The notes beneath the pieces are model-generated. The model was not told the DNA's origin and made no database searches. It saw nothing but the letters and a program-made list of their open reading frames with translations. From NCBI RefSeq assembly GCF_000197735.1, contig NC_014550.1:3472001-3536000 (forward strand): a DNA stretch of 64,000 nt. The letters are read 5' to 3'. This DNA comes from Glutamicibacter arilaitensis Re117 (GTDB taxonomy: Bacteria > Actinomycetota > Actinomycetes > Actinomycetales > Micrococcaceae). The position numbers and the translations under genes are program-made. This document shows, in pieces, positions 43,577-60,987 of this stretch. The first letter of the stretch is position 1; every line of letters begins with the position of its first letter.

Positions 43577-45107
43577 AGAACTTGAATTCATTGATCTTTC
43601 GGTCAGCTCCGGCGATCAGCGATTGCTCTCCGAAGCGCGCGGTGCCCTGCGAGCCGGCGAATTGGTGGCGGTTGTCGGGCGTTCCGGTTCCGGCAAGACG
43701 CTGCTCACCAAGGCCATTATCGGCCTGCTGCCCCAGCAGCTGCGTGCTGAGGGGCAGATCCTGCTTGATGGCCAGCGCCTTGACCAGCAGGGCGAGAAGG
43801 CCATGGACCAGATCCGCGGACGGCGCATCAGCATGTTGTTCCAGCAGCCCAAGCGCGTGATGAACCCGCGGCTGACCATCCGCGCGCATCTGCTCGAAGC
43901 CCTTGGAGCCCACGGCTGGGGCAAAGCCCGCCAGCACGAGGAGCAGGTGCTGTCCCTGCTCGAAGAAGTAGGCCTGGCCCCCGCCAAGCAGATTGCCGGC
44001 AAGCGCCCGGACCAGCTCTCCGGCGGCATGGCCCAACGCGCCATGCTGGCCATCGCCCTGGCCGCTGACCCGGAGTTCATCCTGGCAGATGAACCGACTT
44101 CATCGCTGGATTCAATCCTCAAGTCCGAGGTGCTGCAATTGCTGCGCCGCAAGCAGCAGGAACGTGGCGTGGGCGTCCTGTTCATCACCCACGACATTGC
44201 CAGCATCCAGCACATTGCCGACCGCATCGTGGTAGTCAGCGACGGGCAGATTGTGGACCAGTGCCCCACCGCGCAGATCTTTTCCAAGGACCGCCACGCC
44301 AAGACACGCGAGCTGGTCGAGGCCAGCTTGCCTCCCCTGCGCACGCCACGAGCGAAGGATTCGCAATGCTTGCTGGAAGCGGTAGACGCGGGCAAGAACT
44401 ACACGCGCCGCGCAAAGGGCCCTGCAGCATTGAAGCCCACGAGCTTGCGCCTGCACGGTGGCCAGGTCCTGGGAGTGGTAGGCCGTTCCGGCTCGGGCAA
44501 GAGCACCTTCGCCAGGCTGCTGGCCGGGTTGGAACAGCCAACGACCGGACGGATCATTCAAACGCACCATAATGGCGAAGCAACGCGGGTGCAGGTCATT
44601 GCCCAGGAACCGTACTCTTCCTTCGATCCCCGGCTTTCCATCCGCACTTCGATGAGCGCGGCAGTGCACCGGCTGCCGGCAATCCAGGCCGGGGAGCGCA
44701 TGGCGCAAGCCATGGCCCAGGTGGGGCTGCCCGGGGAATTACTGGATCGCAGGCCGGGCCAGTGCTCAGGCGGCCAGCTCCAGCGGCTGGCTATCGCACG
44801 AGCGCTGCTGACCGACCCTCAGATTTTGATCTGCGATGAATCCACCTCGGCACTGGATTCGGTAGCCCAGCGCCACATCCTTGATCTGCTACTTAAGTTG
44901 CGCGACTCCATGGGGTTGAGCCTCGTGGTCATTTCCCACGACATGGACGTGATCCGCTATGCCAGCGATGACGTGGCCGTGTTCTACGAGGGCGAGCTGG
45001 TGGAGCATCGTCCGCTCTACGAGTTCCTGGGCAATGCGGAACACCAGCACAGCAAGGATCTCGTGGCTGCGCTGGATATCACTGCGGCGGTTCCTTCCGC
45101 CAGCTGA
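43569..45107 (+). CDS. Fused Opp/Dpp-type ABC ATPase (DppD-DppF)
   Basis: 512 residues from ATG at 43569, overlapping the permease stop. Two ATPase domains in one chain. Domain 1: Walker A G-R-S-G-S-G-K-T-L-L, signature L-S-G-G-M-A-Q, Walker B F-I-L-A-D-E-P-T-S-S-L-D. Domain 2: Walker A G-R-S-G-S-G-K-S-T-F, signature C-S-G-G-Q-L-Q, Walker B I-L-I-C-D-E-S-T-S-A-L-D. Both look active. It completes the importer (lipoprotein, two permeases, fused ATPase). Confidence 0.88.
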   Translation: MTKELEFIDLSVSSGDQRLLSEARGALRAGELVAVVGRSGSGKTLLTKAIIGLLPQQLRAEGQILLDGQRLDQQGEKAMDQIRGRRISMLFQQPKRVMNPRLTIRAHLLEALGAHGWGKARQHEEQVLSLLEEVGLAPAKQIAGKRPDQLSGGMAQRAMLAIALAADPEFILADEPTSSLDSILKSEVLQLLRRKQQERGVGVLFITHDIASIQHIADRIVVVSDGQIVDQCPTAQIFSKDRHAKTRELVEASLPPLRTPRAKDSQCLLEAVDAGKNYTRRAKGPAALKPTSLRLHGGQVLGVVGRSGSGKSTFARLLAGLEQPTTGRIIQTHHNGEATRVQVIAQEPYSSFDPRLSIRTSMSAAVHRLPAIQAGERMAQAMAQVGLPGELLDRRPGQCSGGQLQRLAIARALLTDPQILICDESTSALDSVAQRHILDLLLKLRDSMGLSLVVISHDMDVIRYASDDVAVFYEGELVEHRPLYEFLGNAEHQHSKDLVAALDITAAVPSAS

Positions 45108-45141
45108 TTTCCGCCGTCTGACAAAGGACGGATCTCCTTTG

Positions 45142-45545
45142 CCCTGACTTGGACCGCATATGGATTAATGGACTCTGACCGGCAGCTCACAAAAGAATCT
45201 TTCCAAAACCGACCGGAATTCCATTGCCTGACCTACCTGTTGCATAGTTCCTGCCGGGTTATGCGGCTCTATCCCAGATTTTCCAGCAACACCAAAGAAC
45301 CTGTTTCAGAGGGGAGACGGAAGCCCGGCTGGTAGGAAGCCGAAACACACAAGGCCAGCAACAGCGGAAGTTGCTGGGCCAGCGACTATTCAGGTCCGAA
45401 AGCCGGAGGGTTAGCCGGAAATCCCGATCATGATGACAATAATTCTTGCCATGTCGATGAATGCGGGAACCGAGTTCATCCAGACCAGCTGGACGGTTTT
45501 GATCCCGAACTTCTTCTTCCGCGCGATAACGTCCTGGGCGAGGCC
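45142..45545 (+). pseudogene. Decayed copy of a pheC-like gene
   Basis: Bases 45142-45217 align without gaps to 55601-55676, the leader and start of the intact pheC-like gene, with most positions equal; the start ATG is CTG here. Similarity continues at a lower level, and near 45468 the plus strand reads T-E-F-I-Q-T-S-W-T-V-L-I-P-N-F against P-E-F-I-Q-T-S-W-K-D-L-M-P-D-F of the intact protein. Roughly the N-terminal third is left. It marks the left edge of the accessory block. Confidence 0.65.
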
Positions 45546-45622
45546 TGCATGTGCAGGTAACGCATTAAGAACCACTCTGGGATCGTGGAATTTCATAATA
45601 GTTGCCCCATACCCGCTACAGT

Positions 45623-45637
45623 GGAAACCACCTTTCC
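45623..45637. promoter_or_regulatory. Palindrome before the IclR gene
   Basis: GGAAACCACCTTTCC is an interrupted palindrome 23 bases before the IclR start. It shares TGGAAAC with the inverted repeat upstream of pyrD, so both may be IclR sites. Confidence 0.3.
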
Positions 45638-45660
45638 GGTGGACGGTAACGGAGGAAGAC

Positions 45661-46422
45661 ATGCAGGTAGTGGTCCGATCACTCGAAGTACTGAGGATCT
45701 TGGCACGATCCCCGAAGGGAATGACTCTTGGGGAAATCAGCGATCGGCTCGACCTGCCCGTCGCCAGTGCGCACAGAACAGCGGCAGTGCTCGAACGCGA
45801 GCGATTCATTACGCGTTCCGCCACCAATAGGCGTTATTTTCTGGGTCCGGCTGTCTTAGAGCTTGTCCAGTCAGATTACTCTCGCGAATCTCCACTCGTG
45901 ACCGCGCATAAGGCGGTCGCAGAAGCAAGCAGGCTCAGCGGCGAAACTGTCTTCCTTTCAGAGTTCTCCGGCGACAAAGTCGTGTGTCTTGCGCTGTCCG
46001 AATCCAGATATCCTTTGCGTCTCTATGTACGAGTAGGGCAGACGATGCCATTACATGCTGCCGCAGCCGCGCGCACGCTGCTAGCGTGGCAGCAGCCAGA
46101 AACCGTGCAGAAATTGCTGTCAAATTCCGAGCTGACTCCATTTACGCCCGACACCCCTAGCACGATTAATGCGGTAATGGATCATTTGGCGGCCATCAGA
46201 GCCACGGGCTATGACATTTGCGAGTCGGAACTGGACGAGAACGTTTGGGCAGTTTCCGCGCCAGTTAGATCCTCCACTGGCCAAGTTGTCGCTTCAATAA
46301 CCCTGGCTTCGCCGACGCAGCGAATGGCACGAGCCGATATTCGAGATGAGGCTGTACGGCTCACTTTGGCCGCTGCGCATGAAATGGCATCCGATCTGGG
46401 CTATGAAGAACCAGAGACCTAG
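45661..46422 (+). CDS. IclR-family transcriptional regulator
   Basis: 253 residues from ATG at 45661 (GGAGG upstream). N-terminal winged helix (V-V-R-S-L-E-V-L-R-I-L-A-R-S-P-K-G-M-T-L, then L-P-V-A-S-A-H-R-T) and a C-terminal GAF-like effector domain with R-V-G-Q-T-M-P-L-H-A-A-A-A-A-R. IclR proteins sense small carboxylates and control catabolic operons. Being directly upstream of the orotate-type operon, it is its likely regulator, perhaps sensing orotate or dihydroorotate. Confidence 0.85.
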   Translation: MQVVVRSLEVLRILARSPKGMTLGEISDRLDLPVASAHRTAAVLERERFITRSATNRRYFLGPAVLELVQSDYSRESPLVTAHKAVAEASRLSGETVFLSEFSGDKVVCLALSESRYPLRLYVRVGQTMPLHAAAAARTLLAWQQPETVQKLLSNSELTPFTPDTPSTINAVMDHLAAIRATGYDICESELDENVWAVSAPVRSSTGQVVASITLASPTQRMARADIRDEAVRLTLAAAHEMASDLGYEEPET

Positions 46423-47100
46423 GCATTAGAGAACAGCCCCTATCACGCTGCAGGATTTCCGTATATCGCTCGAATCGCTTGCCGCACACGCAGTTCATCC
46501 TGCCCATTTTGGAAACGCGGATCAAGTATTCCGTCGTGACTGGTTAATGGAATCTGCGTTGGGCCAACCGCCAACACCGCAGGTCTTCCCTCTCCTGAGC
46601 GCACGGTTATTGCGAACAGAAACGATTTGGGCTCTCAGGGTCATCTGCGTTGCTCCACGCGATCACTTCCGGGAATCCATTCCTGCCTCGAACCCGATGC
46701 ATCCACCCCTAGAAACGGGAGCTCCTCCGCTTCTCATGCTCTCGGTAAATCATTCGTGCACTATGACCTCAGCACCTTTATATGAAATGGCATCGTTCAC
46801 TAGCAGCCCTCGCCCGCAAGCATGCAGGCTTCTTTGCGTCATAATTCGGTCAAATTTGATGATCCAAAGACCATATTTGTCAAAGTTTTTTTAATCATCA
46901 TTTTCCACTTCGCATGCCAAAAATCCGTTTGTGTTTTCACCTAGCGGATGAAATGGAAACTTCATCACCCGTTGCGTAGAATTCAGTGAAATGCCGTTCA
47001 TTCAGCGTCGAAATCAACGAAGATCGGGATCTTGACAGGTACTTGTGATGCACCTCATGCTTGTCATAAGTTCACGTCACGGATTAAGGGATTTTGCCAA
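46423..47100. other. Long AT-rich intergenic region with candidate operator
   Basis: About 680 bases with no convincing gene; a 115-codon plus-strand frame inside has no ribosome site or protein-like composition. The last 250 bases are AT-rich. GATGAA (46947-46952) and TTCATC (46961-46966) form an inverted repeat around ATGGAAAC. The promoter of the following operon must lie here. Confidence 0.45.
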
Positions 47101-48090
47101 ATGGAAAATGAGGTTTTACTCGACAGCCCGTCGAGCTGCGAAAAGAAGCACGCGACTGATGCTGGGGCGGATTTATCAATCGCCCTGGGCGAGCTTTCTC
47201 TGGCTAATCCGATCATGCCGGCATCGGGTTGCTTCGGACCTGAGCTTGCTCCGTTCCTCGCTTTCGACCAGCTTGGAGCGGTGGTGACCAAAACAGTCTT
47301 TTCAGTGCATCGAGCCGGGAATCCAGCCCATCGATTGACTGAAACGGAATTTGGAATGCTCAACAGTGTGGGTATTCCAAGTCTGGGCAGCGAGGGGTTT
47401 AGAAATGGGCTTCTCAAGGAATACCAGGCTAGCGGAACTCGCGTTGTAGTCAGCATTGGTGGCCTCTTCACCCAAGAGTATTTCACGGTTGCCGAGGAGC
47501 TGGGCCAGGAAGACGTCGACGCTTTCGAGGTGAATGTTTCATGTCCAAATTTGGAACATGATGGCTTGCCGATCGGAACCTCTCCCGACCGAGTTTTCGA
47601 AGTGATTCAGGGAATCCGCAAACATACTGATCATCCCTTATTCGTCAAGCTCACCCCCACGGTCAACTCGATAGGAGAAATAGCAAAAGCTGCGGAAGAT
47701 GCTGGTGCAACTGCGGTAACTGTAGCTAACAGCTTTTCGGGTCTAGCTATCGACGCCCCGCGGCGGAAAAGCGTATTGGGCAGTGGAGCCGGCGGATACA
47801 CCGGCCCGGCCGTCAAGCCCTTGGCACTGAAGTTAGTGCGGGATGCTGCGCAGGCAGTCACCATTCCTGTCATCGGATGCGGCGGAATCACCACATCGCG
47901 GGACGTTGCTGAATTCATGATCGCAGGTGCGACTGCAATTCAGGTAGGGACAGCAACATTTACGCGGCCCACGGCAATGGGTGAAATTCTTGCTGGATTA
48001 GATGCTCTTTGCCACCAATTGAAGGTTTCCAAGCTCTCGGATCTAATCGGAACCCTTGACACCCCTATTCCCTCCCGGAGGCTAGCATGA
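47101..48090 (+). CDS. pyrD: Dihydroorotate dehydrogenase, class 1B catalytic subunit (likely orotate reductase)
   Basis: 329 residues. FMN barrel interconverting orotate and dihydroorotate. Class 1 motif F-E-V-N-V-S-C-P-N-L-E-H-D-G has catalytic Cys148; A-V-T-V-A-N-S-F-S-G-L-A-I-D, G-G-Y-T-G-P-A-V-K-P and the phosphate loop I-G-C-G-G-I-T-T point to class 1B, which works with PyrK and NAD(H). High-GC actinobacteria normally make pyrimidines with class 2 PyrD, so this enzyme is probably catabolic. ATG at 47101 has a weak site (AAGGGAT); TTG at 47032 is possible. Ends in an ATGA overlap with the transporter gene. Confidence 0.85.
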   Translation: MENEVLLDSPSSCEKKHATDAGADLSIALGELSLANPIMPASGCFGPELAPFLAFDQLGAVVTKTVFSVHRAGNPAHRLTETEFGMLNSVGIPSLGSEGFRNGLLKEYQASGTRVVVSIGGLFTQEYFTVAEELGQEDVDAFEVNVSCPNLEHDGLPIGTSPDRVFEVIQGIRKHTDHPLFVKLTPTVNSIGEIAKAAEDAGATAVTVANSFSGLAIDAPRRKSVLGSGAGGYTGPAVKPLALKLVRDAAQAVTIPVIGCGGITTSRDVAEFMIAGATAIQVGTATFTRPTAMGEILAGLDALCHQLKVSKLSDLIGTLDTPIPSRRLA

Positions 48091-49361
48091 CAAATAATCA
48101 CCTGACTTCTGATCTCAAAGCGAGGCGAGGCAAGTCGTCCAACAGAACGGACGAGGAACGCTACGGACGCAAGGCCGTCTTCGCTTCCGCCATCGGCTAC
48201 GGACTAGATGGTTTCGATCTCTTGATCCTCAGCTTTGCCTTGTCGGGAATTATCGCAACTTTCGGGCTTACGGACATTGAAGCAGGGTCTCTTCACACTA
48301 TTACCTTGCTGGGCGCGGTTCTGGGAGGCATTGTCTTTGGCGTTTTGGCCGACAGGTTTGGCCGCGTAAAGATGTTGACCTACTCGGTAGTGCTCTTTGC
48401 GCTCTTTACGGGTTTGTCAGCCGTTGCCACTGGATTCGCGGATCTTGCGGCATACCGATTCATTGCAGGCATAGGTATCGGCGGTGAATTCGGCATTGGC
48501 ATGACGCTAGCGGCAGAAGCCGTGCCAGCGAAGATGCGTGCTCGCGCTACTTCCTGGGTGGCGATCGGTTTCCAATTCGGTGTACTCGCCGCCGCCATAC
48601 TTTCGGCACCTGTCATCAGCGTATTTGGCTGGCGCGGACTTTTCGTTATCGGAGCCGTCCCCGCGATCGTCGCAATCGTCCTGCGAAAGCGCTTGCACGA
48701 ACCCCCGAAATTCCTCGAAAAAGTCCACAATGATGGTCAGAACTCGCAAACTAAGGCCAAGTCCAACCCATTGCGTCTGCTAGTAGGCAGCAAGAAAGCT
48801 GTACGGATCACGCTAGCCATGATCATCCTGACGTCTGTTCAGAATTTTGGATATTTCGGAATCATGAGTTGGCTTCCTCGATACCTTAATACGCAGTTCA
48901 ACCTCAATTTGATGAGTTCTTCCATTTGGACGGCAGTAACCGTTGTTGGCATGATGTCCGGAATCCTCGTCTTCGGCCAACTAGCTGATCGAATTGGCCG
49001 ACGCAAGACTTTCTGGATATTCCAAATTGGCGCGGCAGTTTCCGTTCTAGCCTACAGCCAGATGACCGACGCAACCTTGCTGCTCATAGGCGGCTTCGTC
49101 ATGGGTGCCTTTGCCAATGGCATGCTCGGCGGCTATGGCGCTCTCATGGCCGAGTTGTATCCAACTGAGGCTCGGGCCACCGCACAGAATGTTCTATTCA
49201 ACATCGGCCGCGGTATCGGTGGTTTTGCCCCAATCGTGATCGCACTCATCGCATCCCAGTACGGTTTCGCTTTCGCTCTGGGGCTTCTGCCAGCAATCTA
49301 TCTTCTTGCTTTCCTCACCATGTTCCTCGTCCCCGAACGCAGCGGAGCAGAACTCAACTAA
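48087..49361 (+). CDS. MFS transporter, aromatic-acid:proton symporter type (candidate orotate uptake)
   Basis: 424 residues, twelve predicted helices. G-Y-G-L-D-G-F-D-L-L-I in helix 1 is the hallmark of the AAHS branch (4-hydroxybenzoate, benzoate and similar carboxylates), with D-R-F-G-R-V-K after helix 2 and G-G-E-F-G-I-G in helix 4. Overlap with pyrD makes it part of the operon. Orotate, a planar heteroaromatic carboxylate, fits this family; the substrate is inferred. Confidence 0.82.
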   Translation: MTNNHLTSDLKARRGKSSNRTDEERYGRKAVFASAIGYGLDGFDLLILSFALSGIIATFGLTDIEAGSLHTITLLGAVLGGIVFGVLADRFGRVKMLTYSVVLFALFTGLSAVATGFADLAAYRFIAGIGIGGEFGIGMTLAAEAVPAKMRARATSWVAIGFQFGVLAAAILSAPVISVFGWRGLFVIGAVPAIVAIVLRKRLHEPPKFLEKVHNDGQNSQTKAKSNPLRLLVGSKKAVRITLAMIILTSVQNFGYFGIMSWLPRYLNTQFNLNLMSSSIWTAVTVVGMMSGILVFGQLADRIGRRKTFWIFQIGAAVSVLAYSQMTDATLLLIGGFVMGAFANGMLGGYGALMAELYPTEARATAQNVLFNIGRGIGGFAPIVIALIASQYGFAFALGLLPAIYLLAFLTMFLVPERSGAELN

Positions 49362-49419
49362 GCCCGACAGGCCGCAAGTGCATGCGGCATTCTTCGCGCC
49401 CTCAGGCAAAGGAAAACCA

Positions 49420-49947
49420 ATGACCACGCTCTCAACAACTACTCCGCCAGAAATTGTCCAAGACAGCTCCGAGCAGCGGCTGGATCTATTGGCCGATTTG
49501 AAAGCCCTGCGACCAACCGAAGGAGACCTGCCGGACGCTCGCTTGGCCCTTCATCGTCCAGCAATATTACGACGTCTCGCGGAATCCCTTGCTGCCCGTA
49601 TTCCTGCAGGCGTTGACCGTCTCGTAGCCCAGTCAGGGACAGATGCCATTCTCGCCACTGCGGTATCGCTGCACAGCGGCATCGCCTTCGCACTGGTAGA
49701 TCTCGCTAACCCCGAGATCTTAGGAGAAATGCACCGATCTGAACGAACTCTACTTATCGGATTCGAACTGGACGCAAATACGCCTGGCCTCCTAGCCATC
49801 CTCCAGGCATCCGGAACAGCGCCGGAAATGAGCTTGCACGTTCTCGATACCCGGTACTCGCAGACAGCATCTCCGGACTTGACTACCCACACGCTGTTCG
49901 ACTTCACTGAACTCTCACACCCTATCCAGGAGAGACACCATGACTGA
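49420..49947 (+). CDS. PRTase-like small protein 1 (unknown function)
   Basis: 175 residues from ATG at 49420. Residues 45-145 follow the order of a type I phosphoribosyltransferase (orotate PRTase-like): helix L-A-E-S-L-A-A-R-I, then V-D-R-L-V-A-Q-S-G-T-D-A, a strand G-I-A-F-A-L-V-D, and R-T-L-L-I-G-F-E-L-D-A-N-T-P-G where PRTases have the acidic PRPP loop (V-D-D-x-x-T-T-G). The two aspartates and T-T-G are missing, so it is unlikely to use PRPP. Lies between transporter and amidohydrolase and overlaps the next gene, a divergent sibling. Confidence 0.6.
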   Translation: MTTLSTTTPPEIVQDSSEQRLDLLADLKALRPTEGDLPDARLALHRPAILRRLAESLAARIPAGVDRLVAQSGTDAILATAVSLHSGIAFALVDLANPEILGEMHRSERTLLIGFELDANTPGLLAILQASGTAPEMSLHVLDTRYSQTASPDLTTHTLFDFTELSHPIQERHHD

Positions 49948-50443
49948 CAACACCGCAAGCATTCTCGAATTCGCACACACCCTCGCCCAACCAGCTGAGG
50001 CCAGCAAGATGACCTCTGTCCAAGCACCCACCGTCGCTGAACTTCTGGGAAAGGAACTGGCATCGGCCTTGGGTTCCTCCCCTATCTCCACAGTGGTGGT
50101 CTGGGACCAGATCGAGTCTGCAGTTCTTGGCCACGTCGTGGCCCGGGAACTGGATGCTGAATTAATTTACGCCTTCTCAGTTGAGGGTTCACTCGGCCTG
50201 TCCGCAGAGCTCCGCTCCGATTCACGAGTGGCCCTGATCAGCTACGACTGGTCCGAGCTCCATGGCCTAAGCGCTTTGGCCAGTTTCGTAGAGTCAAAGG
50301 GAGCAACAGTCCTCAGCGTCGGCTCGGTCATTTCTGAACCCAATCTAGAAATCGCAGCCGGAATCAAAACGCATGCCCTAACCGGCAGCCAACTTGAAAT
50401 ACCAGACTCATTAAAGGAACAACATGTCGTCGACAACGGCTGA
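49940..50443 (+). CDS. PRTase-like small protein 2 (unknown function)
   Basis: 167 residues. The ATG at 49940 overlaps the previous stop by eight bases. Same layout as its neighbour: L-G-K-E-L-A-S-A-L, then S-T-V-V-V-W-D-Q-I-E-S-A-V-L-G-H-V-V-A, and R-V-A-L-I-S-Y-D-W-S-E-L-H-G-L-S at the PRPP-loop position, again without D-D and T-T-G. G-A-T-V-L-S-V-G-S-V-I follows, as in PRTases. The pair may form a heterodimer that binds orotate or a nucleotide, perhaps as sensor or channelling partner. Confidence 0.6.
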   Translation: MTDNTASILEFAHTLAQPAEASKMTSVQAPTVAELLGKELASALGSSPISTVVVWDQIESAVLGHVVARELDAELIYAFSVEGSLGLSAELRSDSRVALISYDWSELHGLSALASFVESKGATVLSVGSVISEPNLEIAAGIKTHALTGSQLEIPDSLKEQHVVDNG

Positions 50444-51725
50444 AACAACTGGAGCCCTTTCGGAGTTCGCCGCTGAGCGGGTCCAATCGCACATTGAGGC
50501 ATTTGCTTCCGTGTGCGAACCCGCCAGCGGTCCCGGGATCACCCGGCTGGGCTACAGCGCCCTAGAACGCAAGGCCCACGAAATCTTCCAGTCCTATATG
50601 GCGGGCCTAGGCTTAGAGGTAAGCACTGACGCTGCAGGGAATTCAATAGCGGAATTACCGGGCCAGGATCCTTCGCTACCCGCCATAGGTACTGGCTCCC
50701 ACCTTGACAGCGTCCCGAATGGTGGCGCCTTCGACGGCATCGCCGGCGTCGTAGCCGCGATGGAAGTTGCCAGAACGTTGAGCACGGCAAGTCAACCGCC
50801 GCGCCACCCCATCCGATTCGTGGCTTTCGCCGCAGAAGAGGGAGCCAGATTCGGCCAAGCCTGCACCGGAAGCCGTATCATATCCGGACTGACCAAGGCC
50901 AGGGATCTGCCGGCATTATTGGATCAGGACGGAATTAGTGTCGCTCAGGCCATGGCGGCCCTCGGTATCGATCCTCTTGCAGTTGAGAAAGCCCAATGGA
51001 ATCCAGACGACTGGGCCGGTTTCATAGAGCTGCATATCGAGCAAGGAAGCGTGCTCACCGACGCCGGCATGCCAATCGGAGTCGTTGACCTGATCTCCGG
51101 AAGCACGCGCATTAAAATCGAGATCAAGGGGCGTGCTTCGCACACAGGCGGAACCCCGATGCACCTTCGTGCAGATGCTCTAGCGGCAGCCTCCGAAATC
51201 GTGCTGGCGGCAGAGTCCCTTGCAAACGACCCAGGTCACCACGGGACACGCATCACGGTCGGAAAGATGGACGTATTCCCGGGTTCGATAACCACTATCC
51301 CGGGAGAATGCCAGCTTCACATTGACGTGAGGGATACGGACCCCGCGCGCCAACGCGTGTCCACATCAGAATTGATTTCACGTGCATACGATATCGCGAG
51401 TTCCCGGAAAACCGAGATCAATGTTGAAATACTCGCAGATGCTTCTCCAGTGATTCTGCCCATTGCGATCCGCAACGCAATTACGACTTCAGCAGCATCA
51501 CAAGGTATTGAGTATCGGGTAATGCCCTCAGGGGCCAGCCACGACACCCAGATGATCAACCATGTTTGCCCTAGCGGAATGATCTTTGTCCCCAGCCAGA
51601 ACCATGGTGTAAGCCATTCACCGGACGAGCTGACAACCTATTCTGATCTTGCCGTAGGCATCGATCTCCTCACAGTGAGCTTGCGAGAGCTCGATAGTTC
51701 CCTCAACACCCAAAATTCCCACTAG
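50424..51725 (+). CDS. M20 N-carbamoyl amino-acid amidohydrolase (candidate ureidosuccinase)
   Basis: 433 residues, AllC/HyuC branch of M20. ATG at 50424 with AAAGGAA, overlapping the previous gene by 20 bp. Metal ligands: G-S-H-L-D-S-V (His93), G-G-A-F-D-G-I (Asp104), A-E-E-G-A-R-F (Glu138-139), L-H-I-E-Q-G and a late histidine (S-H-D-T-Q). The family hydrolyses N-carbamoyl amino acids or allantoate. Among pyrD, pyrK, dihydroorotase and aspartase the fitting substrate is N-carbamoyl-L-aspartate, giving aspartate, CO2 and ammonia. Confidence 0.82.
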   Translation: MSSTTAETTGALSEFAAERVQSHIEAFASVCEPASGPGITRLGYSALERKAHEIFQSYMAGLGLEVSTDAAGNSIAELPGQDPSLPAIGTGSHLDSVPNGGAFDGIAGVVAAMEVARTLSTASQPPRHPIRFVAFAAEEGARFGQACTGSRIISGLTKARDLPALLDQDGISVAQAMAALGIDPLAVEKAQWNPDDWAGFIELHIEQGSVLTDAGMPIGVVDLISGSTRIKIEIKGRASHTGGTPMHLRADALAAASEIVLAAESLANDPGHHGTRITVGKMDVFPGSITTIPGECQLHIDVRDTDPARQRVSTSELISRAYDIASSRKTEINVEILADASPVILPIAIRNAITTSAASQGIEYRVMPSGASHDTQMINHVCPSGMIFVPSQNHGVSHSPDELTTYSDLAVGIDLLTVSLRELDSSLNTQNSH

Positions 51726-51734
51726 GAGCTTGCC

Positions 51735-52634
51735 ATGTCCACAACTTCTAACGTGCCCGTGCTCAGCCCGGACAATGCTCCCTGCGCCGACGGCTGGGAA
51801 CTGGCCAAATTGCCACGCAAACCACGCCCACGAGCCACCGCCGGTCATTATCAGGTCATAGACCATCGTCCGCTCGGGGACCGCTACATGGCCCTCACGC
51901 TGCATGCCCCCGCTATAGCCGAGTCTGCTCAACCAGGCCAATTTCTGATGTTGACCGCTGCCCGCAAGGGTGAAGCCACGCCTGCTTTGCCACGACCCAT
52001 GGCAATTTACTCTACCGACGATGACAGCGGAAATATCGAAGTTTTCTATGGCGTTGTCGGATCTGGCACAGAACGGCTTAAATCCTTCCGAGTGAGCGAG
52101 GAAATGTTCGTTGTCGGCCCCTTGGGCCGGGCATTTGAAATCGAAGAGAATGTACAGCGCGTTTTGCTTATCGGACGGGGAATCGGCACCTGCTCATTGA
52201 CCACCGTCGCGCAGCATAACGCCAAGCGGAATCTCCAGATCACAGCAGTGACCAGTGCAAGAGACTCTACGGCATTGATTGGCGCGGATTTCTACCGGGA
52301 CAATGGCGCAAAGGTATATGAAGTTACCGATGTCGAAGGCACAAGCACACCAGAAGCGCTATTTGCCACGCTTACCTCTGATCTTGATTCCAATCCCCCA
52401 CAGGTCATCATGACTTGTGGTTCAGAAAGACTCACGAAGTTGTGTGAAGCCCTGGCTTCCCGTTGGGATGCGAAAATCCAAGTCTCTGTGGAGGCCCATA
52501 TGGCCTGCGGCTTGGGCTACTGCCACGGATGCGCTTCAGGGGCTCGCAGTGAAGGAGATGAAAGCCCTCTGATCTGCAACGATGGTCCCGTTTTCTCTTG
52601 GACCCCGGTTTCCCCAGAATTGCAGGTCCCATGA
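51735..52634 (+). CDS. pyrK: Dihydroorotate dehydrogenase electron-transfer subunit
   Basis: 299 residues. FAD site R-P-M-A-I-Y (87-92), nucleotide-binding L-L-I-G-R-G-I-G-T-C-S-L, and a [2Fe-2S] site with Cys258, 263, 266 and 281 in M-A-C-G-L-G-Y-C-H-G-C followed by I-C-N-D-G-P-V-F. PyrK passes electrons between NAD(H) and PyrD FMN. Working with the operon PyrD it could reduce orotate with NADH. An N-terminal extension of about 35 residues is longer than usual. Its stop overlaps the dihydroorotase start (ATGA). It is separated from pyrD by four genes, unlike Firmicute operons. Confidence 0.85.
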   Translation: MSTTSNVPVLSPDNAPCADGWELAKLPRKPRPRATAGHYQVIDHRPLGDRYMALTLHAPAIAESAQPGQFLMLTAARKGEATPALPRPMAIYSTDDDSGNIEVFYGVVGSGTERLKSFRVSEEMFVVGPLGRAFEIEENVQRVLLIGRGIGTCSLTTVAQHNAKRNLQITAVTSARDSTALIGADFYRDNGAKVYEVTDVEGTSTPEALFATLTSDLDSNPPQVIMTCGSERLTKLCEALASRWDAKIQVSVEAHMACGLGYCHGCASGARSEGDESPLICNDGPVFSWTPVSPELQVP

Positions 52635-53956
52635 AAACGGCCGCTGCACACTGGAGCATCGGCTCATCCCTCGGCGACATGATTCTCACCGGCGTCCTTC
52701 CCTATGGTGGCCCGCCAGCTGATGTCCTGATTTCTGATGGAAAGTTCGTTTCTTTCGTTTCCCAGGATCAAGCTCGCAATCCAGAGGCCCAGGTAGTGGA
52801 TTGCCAAGGACTGATCATGATGCCAGGATTCGTCGACCTCCACACCCATCTCAGAGAACCCGGCGGTGAAGCGGCTGAGACCATCTCGACCGGAACACGC
52901 TCGGCGACGGCAGGAGGCTACACCGACGTGTTCGCGATGGCCAATACCGATCCTGTCACGGATTCAGCTGAGCGCGTTCGGAACCTAGTCGCATTAGCCA
53001 ACCTCCATGGTGCGTGCCGTGTACATCCGGTTGGCGCCCTGACGAAAAACTTGGAAGGAAATGAATCCGCTCCCTACGCAGAAATGGCCGCCGCCGGAGC
53101 ACACATTTTTTCAGATGATGGCCGATGCCTTGACAACGCCAATCTCACTCGCCAGGGACTTCAAGCTGTTGCCGCATTTGGCGGAGTTCTTGCTCAGCAT
53201 GCCCAAAGCGCCGATTTGGCAGGTCAAGGACAGATCAATGCCGGTCCAGCTGCCCAATCGACTGGGATTCCGGCGTGGCTGGGAGTTGCCGAAGAAACGA
53301 TTATCGCCAGGGATGCCATCCTGGCCGCAGAAACCGGTGCCCATTTGCACGTTTGCCATATATCGACGCGTCGATCAGCAGACATAGTCCGCTGGGCAAA
53401 ATCGCAAGGTTGGCCGGTTACCGCTGAGGTCACCCCGCATCATCTGTTGCTCTCCGATGAGCTGGCAGCTCTTGCAGATACCCGTTACAAGGTCAACCCG
53501 CCTTTGCGCTCAGTGGATGACGTGCTGGCCTTGCGCGCGGCGTTGCTGGACGGAACCATTGATGCTGTCGCCACTGATCATGCCCCGCACACTGCGGAAA
53601 CAAAAGCCAGAAACTGGTGCGATGCTCCCTTCGGAATGACTGGACTCGAGACCGCACTGTCCGTTGTTGCCAAAGTGCTAGAGGATGCAGAACATCTGGA
53701 TTGGAATCTCGTCGCAGCTGTCATGTCTGAGGCGCCGGCGCGGATAGGCGGTATCAGCGAATTCGCAGGGCGCCCGCTAGCCGTCGGAGAACCTGCCTCA
53801 TTCTGCCTAATTGAAGATCAGCAGTGGACAGTAACTTCTGAAAACCGGTATTCGAAGTCCGATAATAATCCCTTCCGGGGAAATAGTTTCCGCTACAAAG
53901 TTGTAGCGACTGCCCTCGAAGGTCGCCTAGTCCACCTCGCGAATGAAAGCCGTTGA
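52631..53956 (+). CDS. pyrC: Dihydroorotase (type I)
   Basis: 441 residues. Zinc hydrolase interconverting dihydroorotate and N-carbamoyl-aspartate. D-L-H-T-H-L-R-E-P-G (His71, His73), N-T-D-P (substrate side), H-V-C-H-I-S-T, K-V-N-P-P-L-R and A-T-D-H-A-P-H are all present; these distinguish it from hydantoinases. A roughly 15-residue leader precedes the usual start, so M-I-L-T-G at 52679 is an alternative. In this operon it should run in the ring-opening direction. It overlaps the aspartase gene. Confidence 0.85.
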   Translation: MKTAAAHWSIGSSLGDMILTGVLPYGGPPADVLISDGKFVSFVSQDQARNPEAQVVDCQGLIMMPGFVDLHTHLREPGGEAAETISTGTRSATAGGYTDVFAMANTDPVTDSAERVRNLVALANLHGACRVHPVGALTKNLEGNESAPYAEMAAAGAHIFSDDGRCLDNANLTRQGLQAVAAFGGVLAQHAQSADLAGQGQINAGPAAQSTGIPAWLGVAEETIIARDAILAAETGAHLHVCHISTRRSADIVRWAKSQGWPVTAEVTPHHLLLSDELAALADTRYKVNPPLRSVDDVLALRAALLDGTIDAVATDHAPHTAETKARNWCDAPFGMTGLETALSVVAKVLEDAEHLDWNLVAAVMSEAPARIGGISEFAGRPLAVGEPASFCLIEDQQWTVTSENRYSKSDNNPFRGNSFRYKVVATALEGRLVHLANESR

Positions 53957-55418
53957 CATCACCATGCCACTAATTAGCGCTTCCCATGCAGGTTCCAGAA
54001 TCGAACACGATCTCATTGGAAACTACGCAATCCCCAGCTATGCGTACTACGGTGTGCACACGGCCCGTGCCGCCGAGAACTTCCAGCTCAGCGGATCGGT
54101 GCTCAGTTCGCAGCCCGTCTTCATTGCTGCTCTGGCCGCCGTTAAGCAGGCCGCCGCGATCGCAAATAAAGCCACCGGGCAGCTGAGTGCTGAGAAGGCA
54201 GATGCAATCATCTTGGCTTGTGACGAAATACGCTCAGGAAAGTTACACGACCAGTTCATCGTAGACATGATCCAAGGCGGTGCTGGGACTTCGACAAATA
54301 TGAATGCCAACGAGGTTGTCGCCAACCGGGCTTTGGAACATCTTGGCTACAAAAGGGGCCAATACGAGTTCCTTCATCCGCTCCAAGACGTAAACATGGG
54401 TCAGAGTACGAATGATGTGTTCCCGACAGCGCTCAAGCTTGCGTTGGACAACCATATTCTCAGTCTCCTGGAGAGTTTGGCCCACTTGAGACGTGCATTG
54501 CAACGGAAAGCGGAAGAGTTCGCCAACGTCATCAAAATGGGCCGAACGCAGCTCCAAGATGCAGTACCGATGACACTTGGACAAGAATTCTTGGCCTATG
54601 CAGTAACTCTTGGTGAAGACGAGGCCCGGCTCCGCGAAGGACGCTTGCTGTTGCACGAGTTGAATCTCGGGGGCACTGCCATCGGTACCGAGCTGAACGC
54701 TCACCCAGAATACCGTGCACATGCAATCGACGCGCTTAGATCAGCTACCGGGATCGATAGCCTGGTATCGGCTGCCAATCTTGTCGAAGCAACTTCAGAC
54801 GTTGGAGTCTTCGTTCAGCTGTCTGGGATCCTGAAGCGTGTCGCGGTCAAATTATCCAAAACGTGCAACGATCTCAGGCTTCTGTCCTCAGGGCCACGTT
54901 CCGGGTTCAATGAAATCAATCTGCCAGCAAGGCAGGCTGGTTCGAGCATAATGCCCGGTAAAGTGAACCCTGTTATCCCGGAAGCGGTTAACCAGGTGGC
55001 TTTCGAAGTAATCGGTAACGATGTCACCGTGACATTGGCAGCCGAAAGCGGACAGCTCCAGCTCAATGCCTTCGAACCAATAATCGCCAGGGCACTCTTT
55101 GCGAATTTGCAGCAACTCGGTGCCGCTAGTCGAATGCTGGCAGATAAATGCATCGATGGAATCACTGCTAACAAAGAGTTCCTCGAACAACGCGTTACTG
55201 AGTCGATCGGGCTGGTTACTGCTCTCAGCCCACGAATCGGTTACGAGAATGCAACACGTATCGCTCAAGAAGCCCTGATCACTGGGCAAGGAGTGACCGA
55301 GTTGGTACTATCATCAGGGCTGCTAACTCAGCAGGAACTTGCGATTGTGCTGTCGGAGATGCTTACCGGTGCGGGGAGGCAATTCCAAGAAGGCCAATCC
55401 GCAGAAGCCACATTGTAG
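53943..55418 (+). CDS. aspA: Aspartate ammonia-lyase
   Basis: 491 residues, fumarase/aspartase superfamily. Converts L-aspartate to fumarate and ammonia. R-I-E-H-D-L-I-G start, G-A-G-T-S-T-N-M-N-A-N-E, G-Q-S-T-N-D-V-F-P-T and the signature G-S-S-I-M-P-G-K-V-N-P (about residues 334-344) followed by V-I-P-E-A-V-N-Q-V are aspartase-like (fumarases differ at several of these places). ATG at 53943 overlaps the dihydroorotase stop; 53964 is an alternative. Last step of the proposed pathway, feeding the citric acid cycle. Confidence 0.87.
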   Translation: MKAVDITMPLISASHAGSRIEHDLIGNYAIPSYAYYGVHTARAAENFQLSGSVLSSQPVFIAALAAVKQAAAIANKATGQLSAEKADAIILACDEIRSGKLHDQFIVDMIQGGAGTSTNMNANEVVANRALEHLGYKRGQYEFLHPLQDVNMGQSTNDVFPTALKLALDNHILSLLESLAHLRRALQRKAEEFANVIKMGRTQLQDAVPMTLGQEFLAYAVTLGEDEARLREGRLLLHELNLGGTAIGTELNAHPEYRAHAIDALRSATGIDSLVSAANLVEATSDVGVFVQLSGILKRVAVKLSKTCNDLRLLSSGPRSGFNEINLPARQAGSSIMPGKVNPVIPEAVNQVAFEVIGNDVTVTLAAESGQLQLNAFEPIIARALFANLQQLGAASRMLADKCIDGITANKEFLEQRVTESIGLVTALSPRIGYENATRIAQEALITGQGVTELVLSSGLLTQQELAIVLSEMLTGAGRQFQEGQSAEATL

Positions 55419-55472: not shown

Positions 55473-55633
55473 GTCGAAAGGGTCTAGCTTGAGCAACCGA
55501 TATAAGACGAACACCGTCTGTGTCTCCTGTCGCTAGCTTGATCAGTACTCCGTTTCACCCACGTATTTGGGGAATTCACGAAACGGACTTGACTCTTGCA
55601 CCCTGACTTGGACGGCTTATAGATTGATGGACT

Positions 55634-56473
55634 ATGACCGACAGTTCACAGAAGAATCCGTCCATTACCCGCCGGTTGCCGTTGCTGGTCCTATGCGCAG
55701 CCTTGTTCCTTTCAAGCTGTTCGGCTCCAGCCCCGGAATCCGGCGACGTCCAGAAGCCAGTTTCCGACAGCACCAGGCTGGATAGCGTTGTTGAAACCGG
55801 AACGTTGAAGGTCTGCACCACCGGCGACTACCGTCCGTTCACCTACCTCGACCCGGATTCCGGGGAATGGTCGGGAATCGACATCACGATGGCGAAAAAT
55901 CTTGCCGAGACCATGGGCGTCGAACCAGAGTTCATCCAGACCTCGTGGAAAGACTTGATGCCGGACTTCCTCTCCAAGTGCGATATGGCAGTAGGCGGGG
56001 TTTCCATTTCCATGGAACGTGCCCAGCAGGCCTACTACAGCGAAGCCACGCTGGACGAGGGCAAGACGCCAATCACCCTGTGCGAGAACGTGGAGAAGTA
56101 CGACACGATCAAGGAAATCAACCAGCCCGGGGTCCGTTCCATCACCCCGATCGGCGGTACCAACGAGAAGTTCGCCGATGCGAATTATCCCGACGGTGAG
56201 ATCATCCGCTTCGAGGACAACAACAAGATCTTCGATGAGATCATTGCCGGGCGTGCCGACGTGATGACCACCGATGCCTCCGAAACTCGGTGGGTGGCCA
56301 ACGAGCACCCCGAGCTGTGTGCGGTGCACCCGGATAAGCCGTTCAATTTCTCCCAGAAGGCCTATCTGCTGCCGCTGGGCGATGACGAGTTCCAGGAGTA
56401 CGTGAACCAGTGGCTGAACATGGCCAAAAACGATGGGACGCTCGCGGCTGCCGAGAAGCCCTGGTTCGGCTAA
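55634..56473 (+). CDS. Lipoprotein cyclohexadienyl dehydratase-like protein (PheC type)
   Basis: 279 residues. Lipobox L-S-S-C near residue 29, then a periplasmic-binding-protein fold. T-T-G-D-Y-R-P-F-T-Y, F-I-Q-T-S-W-K-D-L-M, G-K-T-P-I-T-L-C, G-G-T-N-E-K-F-A and H-P-E-L-C-A-V-H-P follow PheC of Pseudomonas almost motif for motif. PheC converts prephenate or arogenate to phenylpyruvate or phenylalanine outside the cytosol. An amino-acid-binding role is the alternative. A decayed copy lies at 45142. Strong terminator follows. Confidence 0.78.
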   Translation: MTDSSQKNPSITRRLPLLVLCAALFLSSCSAPAPESGDVQKPVSDSTRLDSVVETGTLKVCTTGDYRPFTYLDPDSGEWSGIDITMAKNLAETMGVEPEFIQTSWKDLMPDFLSKCDMAVGGVSISMERAQQAYYSEATLDEGKTPITLCENVEKYDTIKEINQPGVRSITPIGGTNEKFADANYPDGEIIRFEDNNKIFDEIIAGRADVMTTDASETRWVANEHPELCAVHPDKPFNFSQKAYLLPLGDDEFQEYVNQWLNMAKNDGTLAAAEKPWFG

Positions 56474-56494: not shown

Positions 56495-56548
56495 AAGCCA
56501 GTGGCCACGCCTCGAACTCTTCGGAGCGTGGCCACTGGCTTCTTCTTT
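56495..56548 (+). terminator. Rho-independent terminator of the pheC-like gene
   Basis: AAGCCAGTGGCCACGC (56495-56510) is a perfect inverted match to GCGTGGCCACTGGCTT (56526-56541), followed by CTTCTTTTC. Confidence 0.85.
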
Positions 56549-56576
56549 TCCTTGAACTTGCCCGGACCCAGAACTG

Positions 56577-57350
56577 CTAATGCATGTGGCTGCCACCATT
56601 GATGTCAATGGTGGTGCCGGTCAGGTAGGAAGCACCTTCGGATGCCAGGAAGCCGATGACCGATGCGACTTCTCCAGTGGTTGCGGTGCGCCCAATGGGG
56701 ATCCCCGCGGCAATGGCCGCTTCCTGCTCGTCGGTGCTGCCAACACGGATGTTGGTATCCACAGCGCCTGGTGCAATCGCGTTGACGGTGACGCCGCTAG
56801 CCGAGATCTCACGGGCCAGCGCCTTGGTGAAACCGAGGATTGCCGCTTTCGCTGAGGAATAAGGGACCTTGCCGAAGACTCCGCCGCCACGTTGGGCTGA
56901 CACGGAAGACATGTTGATTACTCGTCCCCATCCACTCTCGATCATTTCCGGCAGGAATGCCTTGGTGACCAGGTACGTGCCCGTGGCGTTGACGTTCATG
57001 ATCTTGTTCCAGATATCCAAAGTCGTATCCAGGAAATCCACCGGGGAGGTAATTCCCGCGATATTCACTACGGCGCCGGCAGGAGGCAGCTCCCCCGCGG
57101 CGACGCGGGCTGCCACTGCCGCTTGTGCGGTGGCGACCGAGGACTCGTCGGCAACGTCGATCTCGTGGCCGAATGCCGGCACGCCAAATTCTTCTGCAAT
57201 CTCCGCGGCTACGCGCTCGGATGCGGAGTGGTCCAGATCCAGAATCGCTATTCCCCAGCCTTCCCGGGCCAAGTGCCGGGCGGTTTCGATGCCGATCCCC
57301 TGTGGCGAGGTGGCACCGGTCAGTACTGCAGTGCGCTGGATTTGATTCAT
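56577..57350 (-). CDS. SDR-family dehydrogenase (FabG-like)
   Basis: 257 residues from ATG at 57350. T-G-A-T-S-P-Q-G-I-G (cofactor; P-Q replaces the usual residues before G-I-G), V-N-I-A-G, catalytic S-S-V-S and Y-S-S-A-K-A-A, and A-P-G-A-V-D-T. The C-terminus G-G-S-H-M-H is histidine-tipped. Divergent from the MHS transporter-transketolase operon with two identical palindromes between, so it belongs to the same regulon and probably oxidises a polyol or hydroxy-acid to a ketose. Confidence 0.82.
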   Translation of the reverse strand: MNQIQRTAVLTGATSPQGIGIETARHLAREGWGIAILDLDHSASERVAAEIAEEFGVPAFGHEIDVADESSVATAQAAVAARVAAGELPPAGAVVNIAGITSPVDFLDTTLDIWNKIMNVNATGTYLVTKAFLPEMIESGWGRVINMSSVSAQRGGGVFGKVPYSSAKAAILGFTKALAREISASGVTVNAIAPGAVDTNIRVGSTDEQEAAIAAGIPIGRTATTGEVASVIGFLASEGASYLTGTTIDINGGSHMH

Positions 57351-57473
57351 AGGATTCCTGCTTTCAATACGGCTCGCCCGAACAACGATGAGGCGAACTT
57401 GGTGGTTGCGGCGCGCTGCCCTGGGCGAGAGCACCAGAAGTTTGTGGTGCACACCACGATAGTTTTGTTTACT

Positions 57474-57551
57474 GTTGACAGTCAACTGTTAAATTTCTTC
57501 TTGACAGGACTTGTGTCGACACTCACACTGCTATTAGTGTTGACTGTCAAC
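57474..57551. promoter_or_regulatory. Pair of GntR-type operators
   Basis: GTTGACAGTCAAC (57474-57486) and GTTGACTGTCAAC (57539-57551) are perfect 13-bp palindromes differing only in the central base, 65 bp apart, flanking the divergent promoters. A related imperfect copy precedes the GntR gene at 60940-60964. Confidence 0.7.
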
Positions 57552-57595
57552 AATGAAAGTTGCCCGCATCCCACAACTCACGAAGGGAGCCACCC

Positions 57596-58933
57596 ATGAG
57601 CAGTGAAGCTCTAGAAATGCGTGGCCCGATCCACGGCACCAAGGACGCCAAGCGCGTCGCCATAGGCTCCAGCGTTGGCGCCACCATCGAAACCTACGAT
57701 TTCATCGGCTTCGGCACCGCGGCCGCCCTGTATTTCGGCCACGCGTTCTTCCCGGGCACCGATCCGCTGCTCGGAACGCTGGCATCCTTCGCCACCTTGG
57801 GCGTAGGCTTCGCCGCCCGGCCCCTCGGCGGAATTATCGGCGGCCATCTCGGTGACAAAATCGGGCGCAAGCCGGTGCTTGTCACTTCGCTGATCGTCAT
57901 GGGCCTGGCCACTTTCTTCATCGGTTTGCTGCCCACCTATGAGCAAGTTGGCGTGCTGGCTCCAGCACTCCTGGTTTTTGTGCGCATCGTCCAAGGACTG
58001 GCCTTCGGCGCCGAATGGGGCGGGGCAATCCTGATGACCTATGAACACGCACCATGGATGCAAAAGGGCAGGTTCACCGGGATCGTCCAGTCCGGATTCC
58101 CGGTAGGGTTGCTGCTGGCCAATCTGGTGTTCCTGCTCAGCGTGCAACTGCCTGGCGACTGGGGCTGGCGTGTTCCGTTCCTTGCCAGCCTCCTGCTGGT
58201 CATCGTTGGATTGGTCATCCGCTCGAAGGTCCCGGAGTCGCCTGTGTTCGACGATGTCAAAAACTCAGGGCAGATCGTCAAGTCGCCGATTATGGATGTT
58301 ATCCGCACCGACTGGCGCAATATCCTGCGCGGCATCGGGCTGCGCATTGCCGAGACCGCAGGCTACGCGGTCTCCATCACCTACATGATCTCCTACCTGC
58401 ACACCACCGGCTTGGCGGCGAACTGGCAGACGCTGACCGCCTTGAGCATCGCCGCGGCCGTTGGCATCTTCGCGACCTACCGCTGGGGCAGGCTCACCGA
58501 CCGCGTCGGACGGCGCACCGTCTACCTATTCGCTTGCGCCTTTGCCGCGCTCTTCGGCATTCCGATGTTCCTGATGGTCAACACTGGCTCGTTCCTGATG
58601 ATCATTGCCACGATCGTGATCTCCTACGCAATCTGCCAGAACTCCATGGCCGGCGCCCAGGGTGCCTGGATCCCAGAGCTCTTCCAGGCCAAGACCCGCT
58701 CTTCCGGCGCATCGCTGGCCTACCAGATCTCAGCCATGGTTTCAGGTTTCACGCCATTCATCACCACCTTGCTCTTCATGCAGTTCGGCTGGATGGGCCC
58801 GGCCGCGCTCTTCATCAGCTACGCGCTGATCGGCTTGTGGGCGGCATTAGCCACCAAGGAAACCTGGGGCGCACGCGAACGGCGTCTCGCCGACCAGGCC
58901 ATCGCCGCGAATCCGCAGAAAAGCTGCGTCTGA
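57596..58933 (+). CDS. MHS-family MFS transporter
   Basis: 445 residues from ATG at 57596 (GAAGGGAG upstream). A-I-G-S-S-V-G-A-T-I-E-T-Y-D-F-I-G-F in helix 1 and G-G-H-L-G-D-K-I-G-R-K mark the metabolite:proton symporter family (ShiA/ProP branch). First gene of an operon with the two transketolase subunits, 53 bp before the next. Substrate is probably a small polar acid or sugar acid used by this cluster. Confidence 0.85.
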   Translation: MSSEALEMRGPIHGTKDAKRVAIGSSVGATIETYDFIGFGTAAALYFGHAFFPGTDPLLGTLASFATLGVGFAARPLGGIIGGHLGDKIGRKPVLVTSLIVMGLATFFIGLLPTYEQVGVLAPALLVFVRIVQGLAFGAEWGGAILMTYEHAPWMQKGRFTGIVQSGFPVGLLLANLVFLLSVQLPGDWGWRVPFLASLLLVIVGLVIRSKVPESPVFDDVKNSGQIVKSPIMDVIRTDWRNILRGIGLRIAETAGYAVSITYMISYLHTTGLAANWQTLTALSIAAAVGIFATYRWGRLTDRVGRRTVYLFACAFAALFGIPMFLMVNTGSFLMIIATIVISYAICQNSMAGAQGAWIPELFQAKTRSSGASLAYQISAMVSGFTPFITTLLFMQFGWMGPAALFISYALIGLWAALATKETWGARERRLADQAIAANPQKSCV

Positions 58934-58986
58934 CCCCGGGCAGCAACCCCGGACACCGACCCGTTGAATTCCTGAAAGGACTTCCC

Positions 58987-60864: not shown

Positions 60865-60892
60865 ATCTGCCTCGATCATCTTGCTGATTCGT

Positions 60893-60930
60893 CTTGGGAG
60901 GGTGCAGTGCTCGCACTGCACCCTCCCAAG
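60893..60930. terminator. Perfect hairpin terminator
   Basis: CTTGGGAGGGTGCAGTGC (60893-60910) is a perfect inverted match to GCACTGCACCCTCCCAAG (60913-60930) across a two-base loop, 28 bases after the transketolase stop. Confidence 0.75.
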
Positions 60931-60939
60931 GCGCTAAAA

Positions 60940-60964: not shown

Positions 60965-60987
60965 ATTCCAATCCCTAGGGGTGCTCC

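Follow-up and report, generated by a model that had tools for sequence, protein, structure and literature searches.

A candidate, probably laterally moved, orotate-to-fumarate pathway in Glutamicibacter arilaitensis Re117 and its retained, possibly regulatory or scaffolding, pair of phosphoribosyltransferase-like proteins

The reductive degradation of orotate is, as chemistry, known from Clostridium (Zymobacterium) oroticum and other anaerobes. The Pyd pathway (PydA, PydB, PydC) proceeds by reduction, ring opening and hydrolysis of the carbamoyl group. Orotate phosphoribosyltransferases (OPRTs) hold their catalytic Lys in a flexible loop and cover the orotate with an N-terminal hood, and PurR and PyrR are phosphoribosyltransferase (PRT) folds that are used apart from catalysis and keep the site for phosphoribosyl pyrophosphate (PRPP). 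The dihydroorotate dehydrogenase of C. oroticum belongs to class 1B (PMC10395836), PydA is placed in the reductive uracil pathway (PMC7332683) and a Trypanosoma isoform of adenine phosphoribosyltransferase (APRT) is reported to be inactive (PMC8836349). The present work deals with 64,000 nucleotides of Glutamicibacter arilaitensis Re117 (contig NC_014550.1, positions 3,472,001 to 3,536,000 of the forward strand; hereafter, the window). Judging from the sequence, positions 45661-55418 likely correspond to a laterally acquired, IclR-associated cassette for the catabolism of orotate to fumarate, within which two PRT-like genes, ORF-A and ORF-B, are retained. The nine genes of the cassette, whose coordinates depend on the chosen ATG starts, all lie on the + strand in the following order (family cut-offs in brackets):

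45661..46422, + strand, IclR-type regulator, 253 aa; Pfam IclR_C 113 bits, HTH_IclR 46.5 bits
47101..48090, + strand, PyrD, class 1B dihydroorotate dehydrogenase, 329 aa; NCBIfam NF005574 317.9 bits (269), TIGR01037 275.1 bits (270)
48087..49361, + strand, MFS transporter nearest AAHS aromatic-acid/H+ symporters, presumed orotate importer, 424 aa; TIGR00895 326.5 bits
49420..49947, + strand, ORF-A, apparently a decayed OPRT, 175 aa; predicted PRT fold, best fold matches OPRTs
49940..50443, + strand, ORF-B, pseudo-phosphoribosyltransferase of the W-x6-VLGHVVAREL family, 167 aa; predicted PRT fold
50424..51725, + strand, M20 N-carbamoyl-L-amino-acid amidohydrolase, presumed ureidosuccinase, 433 aa; NF006771 427.9 bits (399), TIGR01879 393.3 bits (204)
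51735..52634, + strand, PyrK, FAD/2Fe-2S electron-transfer subunit, 299 aa; PF10418 38.9 bits (23.9)
52631..53956, + strand, PyrC, class I dihydroorotase, 441 aa; TIGR00857 374.4 bits (279)
53943..55418, + strand, AspA, aspartate ammonia-lyase, 491 aa; NF008909 701 bits (510)

Coordinates and family scans bear out the seven named genes that a preliminary description had placed here, all on this strand, but ORF-A and ORF-B, between the transporter and the M20 gene, had been missed in it. The tight spacing that it reported holds from PyrD to AspA, where the successive junctions measure -4, +58, -8, -20, +9, -4 and -14 bases (thus, ORF-A and ORF-B overlap by 8 bases, and ORF-B and M20 by 20), but does not extend to the regulator, located 678 bases ahead of PyrD. 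The family scans agree that the cassette has no aspartate transcarbamylase (ATCase). As for the reported lack of pyrE, there is indeed no working one, but two PRT-like genes are present, both without the PRPP motif, one of which, ORF-A, seems to be of OPRT descent.

The expected active-site residues of the catabolic enzymes were located by pattern, and presumably play the corresponding roles. PyrD, whose closest entries in the Protein Data Bank (PDB) are 5ue9_A and Lactococcus lactis PyrDB (1ep1_A), has the motif NVSCPN at residues 145-150, with a Cys that we take to be the catalytic residue of class 1B PyrD. PyrK is closest to 5ksw_B and 1ep1_B, and carries the four 2Fe-2S Cys at 258, 263, 266 and 281; its FAD domain (PF00970) scores 16.4 bits, under the cut-off of 21.1. 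Metal-site patterns were found in PyrC (closest to 3gri and 3mpg) and metal-ligand patterns in the M20 enzyme (best PDB match, the L-N-carbamoylase 3n5f_A, 281.7 bits), the matched residues of the latter being, we assume, those of its metal site. AspA carries GSSIMPGKVNPVIPEAVNQV and is related to 6wng and 1jsw; with TIGR00839 it reaches 647.2 bits, under that model's cut-off of 681.2. The regulator is 50-61% identical to the best IclR in each of three related loci, and the MFS protein is 53-62% identical to the MFS proteins of related loci across two phyla.

On this basis, the following steps can be proposed: (i) the MFS protein would import orotate; (ii) PyrD and PyrK, assigned by family and cofactor patterns, would work in the reductive direction, converting orotate to dihydroorotate with NADH; (iii) PyrC, assigned by family and metal patterns, would open the ring to yield N-carbamoyl-L-aspartate; (iv) the M20 enzyme, by family an amidohydrolase, would take this compound as substrate and hydrolyse it to aspartate, CO2 and ammonia; and (v) AspA, a member of the aspartase family, would convert aspartate to fumarate and ammonia. 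ORF-A and ORF-B would most likely form a heterodimer of OPRT remains and an inactive partner.

The same gene set recurs in other genomes and, in consequence, the clustering is more than chance, an explanation that was discarded for this reason. Two strict ORF-B patterns, scanned over one genome per species (84,980 species; relatives of the window's genome may have been left out), gave three loci: (i) Streptomyces (L004), with the order PyrD, MFS, IclR, A, B, M20, PyrK, PyrC, the PyrC match covering the first 164 residues only; (ii) Pseudonocardia (L005), with IclR, a truncated A, B and PyrK, plus M20 and a separate PRT on the opposite strand; and (iii) Nonomuraea (L006), with the order MFS, IclR, B, PyrD, IclR, A, M20, PyrK, PyrC. 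A class search with A7 gave matches in 5 of 384 genomes, one of them the window's own; two 31-bit matches (G607 and G855) were dropped with their contexts unread. A 3.3 kb contig of genome G808 (L099) reads MFS, IclR, A, B, M20, and a further locus (L098) has A-B-M20-PyrC. When 396 genomes of the phylum were searched with PyrK, 260 matched at E 1e-20, the next best at 159 bits versus 544 for the window's own; these other matches, whose contexts were unread, are taken as biosynthetic.

The surroundings of these loci hold other genes as well. Beside the Nonomuraea operon (L006:16331-19760) lie a 293-residue protein with no Pfam match, an M20-family protein, and thymidylate-kinase-like and OMP-decarboxylase-family proteins; in Streptomyces (L004:15282-20098), frames that by eye resemble this set are accompanied by a BtpA protein. 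Around IclR-B-PyrK of Pseudonocardia (L005:1634-16547) there are, by eye, hydantoinase-like, MmgE/PrpD-like, M20, PRT and amino-acid ABC transporter genes and, by family scan, one FAD-binding protein. The L098 cluster is followed by frames resembling, by eye, UbiD, a racemase and an ABC solute-binding protein; this cluster is perhaps for a different substrate.

In plasmids, PyrK matched 103 records, 53 of them from Klebsiella, whereas tblastn with ORF-B and with P0041 gave no match. Plasmid regions were read via PyrK (L022-L026: Variovorax RA8, Roseomonas, Cupriavidus, Klebsiella grimontii and Neorhizobium) and via PRT (Nitratireductor, Pacificitalea, Variovorax VAI-C, Sinorhizobium, Paracoccus and Roseicitreum); those of Sinorhizobium and Paracoccus contain a pyrC-pyrE pair only, and serve as biosynthetic controls. 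All nine PyrK-bearing regions read have PyrK, PyrD and an M20-type hydrolase as immediate neighbours; the hydrolase was called in L022-L026 by a tblastn search with the Variovorax RA8 one, and in L061, L062, L063 and L066 by annotation alone. An importer and a PyrC of about 350 residues are also present in four of the nine (two Variovorax, Cupriavidus and Klebsiella). This PyrC gave no tblastn match with the window's 441-residue enzyme and hence would have been taken up separately. Relative to Variovorax RA8, the window proteins are 47% (PyrD), 38% (PyrK) and 30% (M20) identical, while the MFS protein is 53-55% identical to those of L022, L024 and L025; as the best-kept protein between the phyla, it would point to one shared substrate. 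The co-occurrence that the preliminary description had proposed to look for is thus found both in the Streptomyces and Nonomuraea cassettes and in the plasmids.

The Klebsiella operon read (L025) lies beside arsenic-resistance genes. After the PRT or the regulator, a protein of about 108 residues is encoded at L022:14800-15126 and L025:14258-14584 (44% identical, Variovorax versus Klebsiella; no Pfam match for the Variovorax one). Proteins similar in length and position occur in L061, L062, L063 and L066; the Roseomonas one gave no match.

Several observations weigh against the proposed pathway, or parts of it. The transporter had been described as AAHS-type and, indeed, TIGR00895 (AAHS) is its top NCBIfam model, but its score lies under the cut-off of 418.55. 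PyrK is under the NCBIfam PyrK cut-offs. The M20 enzyme reaches 377.7 bits with the model of ErtE, an N-carbamyl-L-glutamate amidohydrolase (NF058540, cut-off 520), and its top models are broad "allantoate amidohydrolase" ones; for both reasons, sequence does not fix its substrate. No PyrD or PyrK was found in the 17.7 kb of L098, and in L005 PyrK is present with no PyrD or MFS found; the pair is therefore not tied to orotate reduction. No PyrC was found in five of the nine PyrK-bearing plasmid stretches (Roseomonas, Nitratireductor, Pacificitalea and Roseicitreum by annotation; Neorhizobium by tblastn). The earlier claim of completeness to fumarate holds, by gene content, for the window and the Cupriavidus plasmid (whose aspartase is 64% identical to the window's), but aspartase was not found in the other 9 of the 11 loci tested (window, L004-L006, L022-L026, L098 and L099), L004, L005 and L006 among them. 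Finally, the profiles of ORF-A and ORF-B match weakly (probability 21%, E 0.001), so that the relatedness of the two proteins rests on their predicted structures.

The lateral gain of the cassette is suggested by its composition, its edges and its distribution. The insert, of about 10 kb, has a GC content of 0.549, versus 0.610 in the remaining window, and lies between two versions of one gene:

45142..45517, + strand, decayed second copy of the 5' part of a solute-binding-protein gene, left edge of the insertion (blastn)
55634..56473, + strand, intact solute-binding-protein gene, right flank of the insertion (PF00497)

By blastn, the left copy aligns collinearly in two pieces, with 55601-55675 (81%) and with 55872-55973 (72%). 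The right-flank gene is 78-96% identical in 12 of 17 other members of the genus, and in five of the six regions read among those twelve the cassette is absent at the site: in G003, G007, G011, G006 and G001, the ABC operon that stands left of the cassette is directly followed by the solute-binding-protein gene (in G017, this gene alone was matched). Within the 395 genomes drawn from the family, both ORF-B (E 1e-8) and the catabolic-type PyrK (E 1e-20) occur in one, the window's own. Full-length ORF-B is present in 1 of 18 genomes of the genus, with weak matches of about 63 residues in two more. Since close ORF-A and ORF-B homologues exist in other strains, named Arthrobacter and Paenarthrobacter proteins included, the cassette is rare, not unique. 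To the right of the solute-binding gene, positions 56506-61847 are missing in G011, where the sequence from window position 61848 onward follows that gene closely, so the site may collect insertions.

Single-chain models predict a PRT fold for both ORF-A and ORF-B. The AF2 model of ORF-A (alignment of 15 rows) has a pLDDT of 72.9 and a pTM of 0.68, and the best rows of its fold search are OPRTs. No Pfam match was found for either protein, nor did PHROGs give anything; the pyrE model hits ORF-B weakly (E 2.3e-4, 20.9 bits versus a cut-off of 150). According to the alignment, the PRPP motif with its acidic pair is absent from both, and ORF-A has neither the flexible-loop Lys nor the orotate hood. 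Homologues of ORF-A show these parts at different stages: (i) in G808, A keeps the hood SGRASSYYIDKY, the loop RREAKNYATG and the PRPP motif LLLEDVLTTG, and the B beside it is without the motif; (ii) the separate Pseudonocardia PRT (L005:10037-10651) keeps, by eye, the hood and a PRPP-like motif with an altered loop; and (iii) also by eye, a trace of the hood is left in Streptomyces A, and hood, loop and PRPP motif are all gone in Nonomuraea, G968 and the window. In a FastTree tree of 18 sequences, the A proteins and the Pseudonocardia PRT form a group (support 0.959) that excludes the PyrE of the window's genome and the proteobacterial PRTs; the tree has long branches, low support at some inner nodes (0.249) and an uncertain underlying alignment. 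By sequence, ORF-A is a descendant of an OPRT that still looks intact in one related genome (G808). The proteobacterial catabolic PRTs, of which four alphaproteobacterial ones keep the PRPP motif and two from Variovorax have it changed and a shortened loop, seem to have been recruited separately, from local OPRTs. For its part, the ORF-B family comprises at least 71 protein clusters at E 0.01 (7998 candidates scored), including one named Chloroflexota assembly; none of its 32 aligned members has the PRPP motif, and W55, V62, L63, H65, V66-R69 and G83 are invariant or at least 90% conserved.

Both ORF-A and ORF-B keep a helix that follows the old pyrophosphate loop and that, we assume, sits at the dimer face of the PRT fold, which makes an A:B heterodimer the first guess. 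A PRT-like gene adjoins M20 in 10 of 12 PRT-bearing loci (window, L004, L005, L006, L098, L099, L022, L063, L023, L061, L062 and L066), the exceptions being the two Variovorax plasmids; not counted were the two biosynthetic controls, Cupriavidus, where the match was confined to the C-terminus, and Klebsiella and Neorhizobium, where no such gene was found. As L098 combines the pair with M20 and PyrC where neither PyrD nor PyrK was found, it is the hydrolase, and not the reductase, that the pair accompanies. Tentatively, ORF-A and ORF-B may have been retained as non-catalytic proteins that regulate the pathway or serve it as a scaffold. With the same reserve, they could be a two-subunit pseudo-OPRT, made of a once-active A that later died and an inactive B, which regulates or scaffolds M20, or governs the partition of orotate between degradation and UMP synthesis.

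Two other accounts of the pair are rather doubtful. It could be a ligand sensor working with IclR, in the manner of the PRT-fold proteins PurR and PyrR. In this respect, a regulator gene directly precedes or overlaps the A or B gene in Streptomyces, Nonomuraea (which has two IclR genes, one before B and one before A) and G808, and an HTH gene is found before A in L098 (by eye) and before the PRT in the two Variovorax plasmids. Nevertheless, in the window, IclR lies 3 kb from ORF-A, the adjacency to M20 is more consistent, and both proteins have lost the PRPP and orotate sites. Just as doubtful is that the two genes are functionless leftovers in decay. The stepwise loss of catalytic parts and the truncated A ahead of B in Pseudonocardia would fit with this, but both frames are open, overlap their neighbours and are conserved among homologues (about 50-60% identity, with many invariant columns), and the B family is spread over its many clusters.

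With regard to the substrate, it is improbable that the cassette degrades a relative of orotate (dihydroorotate, 5-carboxymethylhydantoin, carbamoyl-aspartate or a substituted orotate), orotate being one of several substrates or none. The M20 and PyrC families are broad, and L098 keeps A-B-M20-PyrC in a stretch where no orotate reductase was found; but PyrD, PyrK, PyrC and the OPRT-type proteins all belong to orotate or dihydroorotate chemistry, and PyrK, PyrD and M20 remain together in every PyrK-bearing plasmid region read (with four of the hydrolases called from annotation). Still less probable is that ORF-A and ORF-B are enzymes with a changed substrate or ligand: ORF-B has conserved residues of its own (W55, H65, R69 and G83), but neither protein has the PRPP motif, a catalytic loop or the orotate hood.

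That the operon duplicates pyrimidine biosynthesis, with PyrD/PyrK and PyrC running forward, is highly improbable. Its enzymes have biosynthetic homologues and are reversible, but the intermediate would be lost to M20 and AspA, the cassette has no ATCase or working OPRT, the insertion is rare and a separate biosynthetic set exists elsewhere, by which a biosynthetic operon was ruled out. In the genome (3.92 Mb, 100% complete by computed estimate), pyrR, pyrB, pyrC, carA, carB and pyrF lie together in one stretch outside the cassette (pyrC was located separately and the other five were named from their sequences, without family search), C3:1904472 holds a second PyrD, and C3:200084 a PyrE above the cut-off; by gene content, therefore, the cassette is not the cell's biosynthetic source, which excludes the case that the preliminary description had named as contrary to its claim. 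Its proposal of orotate catabolism, not biosynthesis, is supported at the level of genes, given this set and the recurrence of the core genes in two phyla. The genome also has a second aspartase-like gene, 60% identical to the cassette AspA.

Concerning regulation, the palindrome GATGAAATGGAAACTTCATC at 46947..46966, upstream of pyrD and with perfect 6-base arms, is weakly suggested as a possible operator for pyrD. An IclR-box pattern, with one palindrome and scattered TGGAAA sites, was unconvincing across loci and was rejected. In 45100-47200, the search for regulatory RNA gave a sole match of 13 bits, far under the gathering score of 40. The promoter and terminator scans were at the level of shuffled sequence (5 versus 5.2; 10 versus 9.6).

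If the proposed pathway is true, it gives genes to the aerobic degradation of orotate, and one core (reductase pair, hydrolase and importer) would be spread over two phyla, partly on plasmids. Furthermore, nature would offer homologues that grade from an OPRT of intact appearance to a pair dead in both members, in which one could test why dead enzymes are kept. It is also a warning that class 1B pyrD/pyrK and pyrC in such genomes should not be called biosynthetic.

Among the open-access titles and abstract openings listed, none was on such an operon or on the A/B pair. The pathway of C. oroticum passes through the same intermediates and likewise uses an NAD-linked dihydroorotate dehydrogenase of class 1B, but here the host is an actinobacterium and the genes form one linked cassette with an MFS importer, an aspartase and the A/B pair; the comparison is one of chemistry. 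The Pyd pathway follows the same three-step logic, with the difference that, in the cassette, PyrD/PyrK and PyrC replace dihydropyrimidine dehydrogenase and dihydropyrimidinase, and the product is aspartate instead of beta-alanine. ErtE belongs to the same M20 family and acts on the next homologue of carbamoyl-aspartate, but the window enzyme, at the score given above, is not a member of that model. The proteobacterial plasmid operons (L022-L026, L061, L062, L063 and L066) have the PyrK-PyrD-M20 core in common with the window, but differ in (i) their PyrC, where present, of the type of about 350 residues; (ii) the TRAP transporters of L061, L062 and L066; (iii) their OPRT, with the PRPP motif in four and a changed motif in two; and (iv) an extra protein of about 105-108 residues in several of them. 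PurR, PyrR and the Trypanosoma APRT isoform are likewise PRT folds used apart from catalysis; but, compared to PurR and PyrR, ORF-A and ORF-B have lost the PRPP site and come as an encoded pair. In relation to the open-access literature listed, then, what is known is the chemistry, from anaerobes, and what appears to be new is a cassette shared across two phyla together with a doubly dead OPRT pair.

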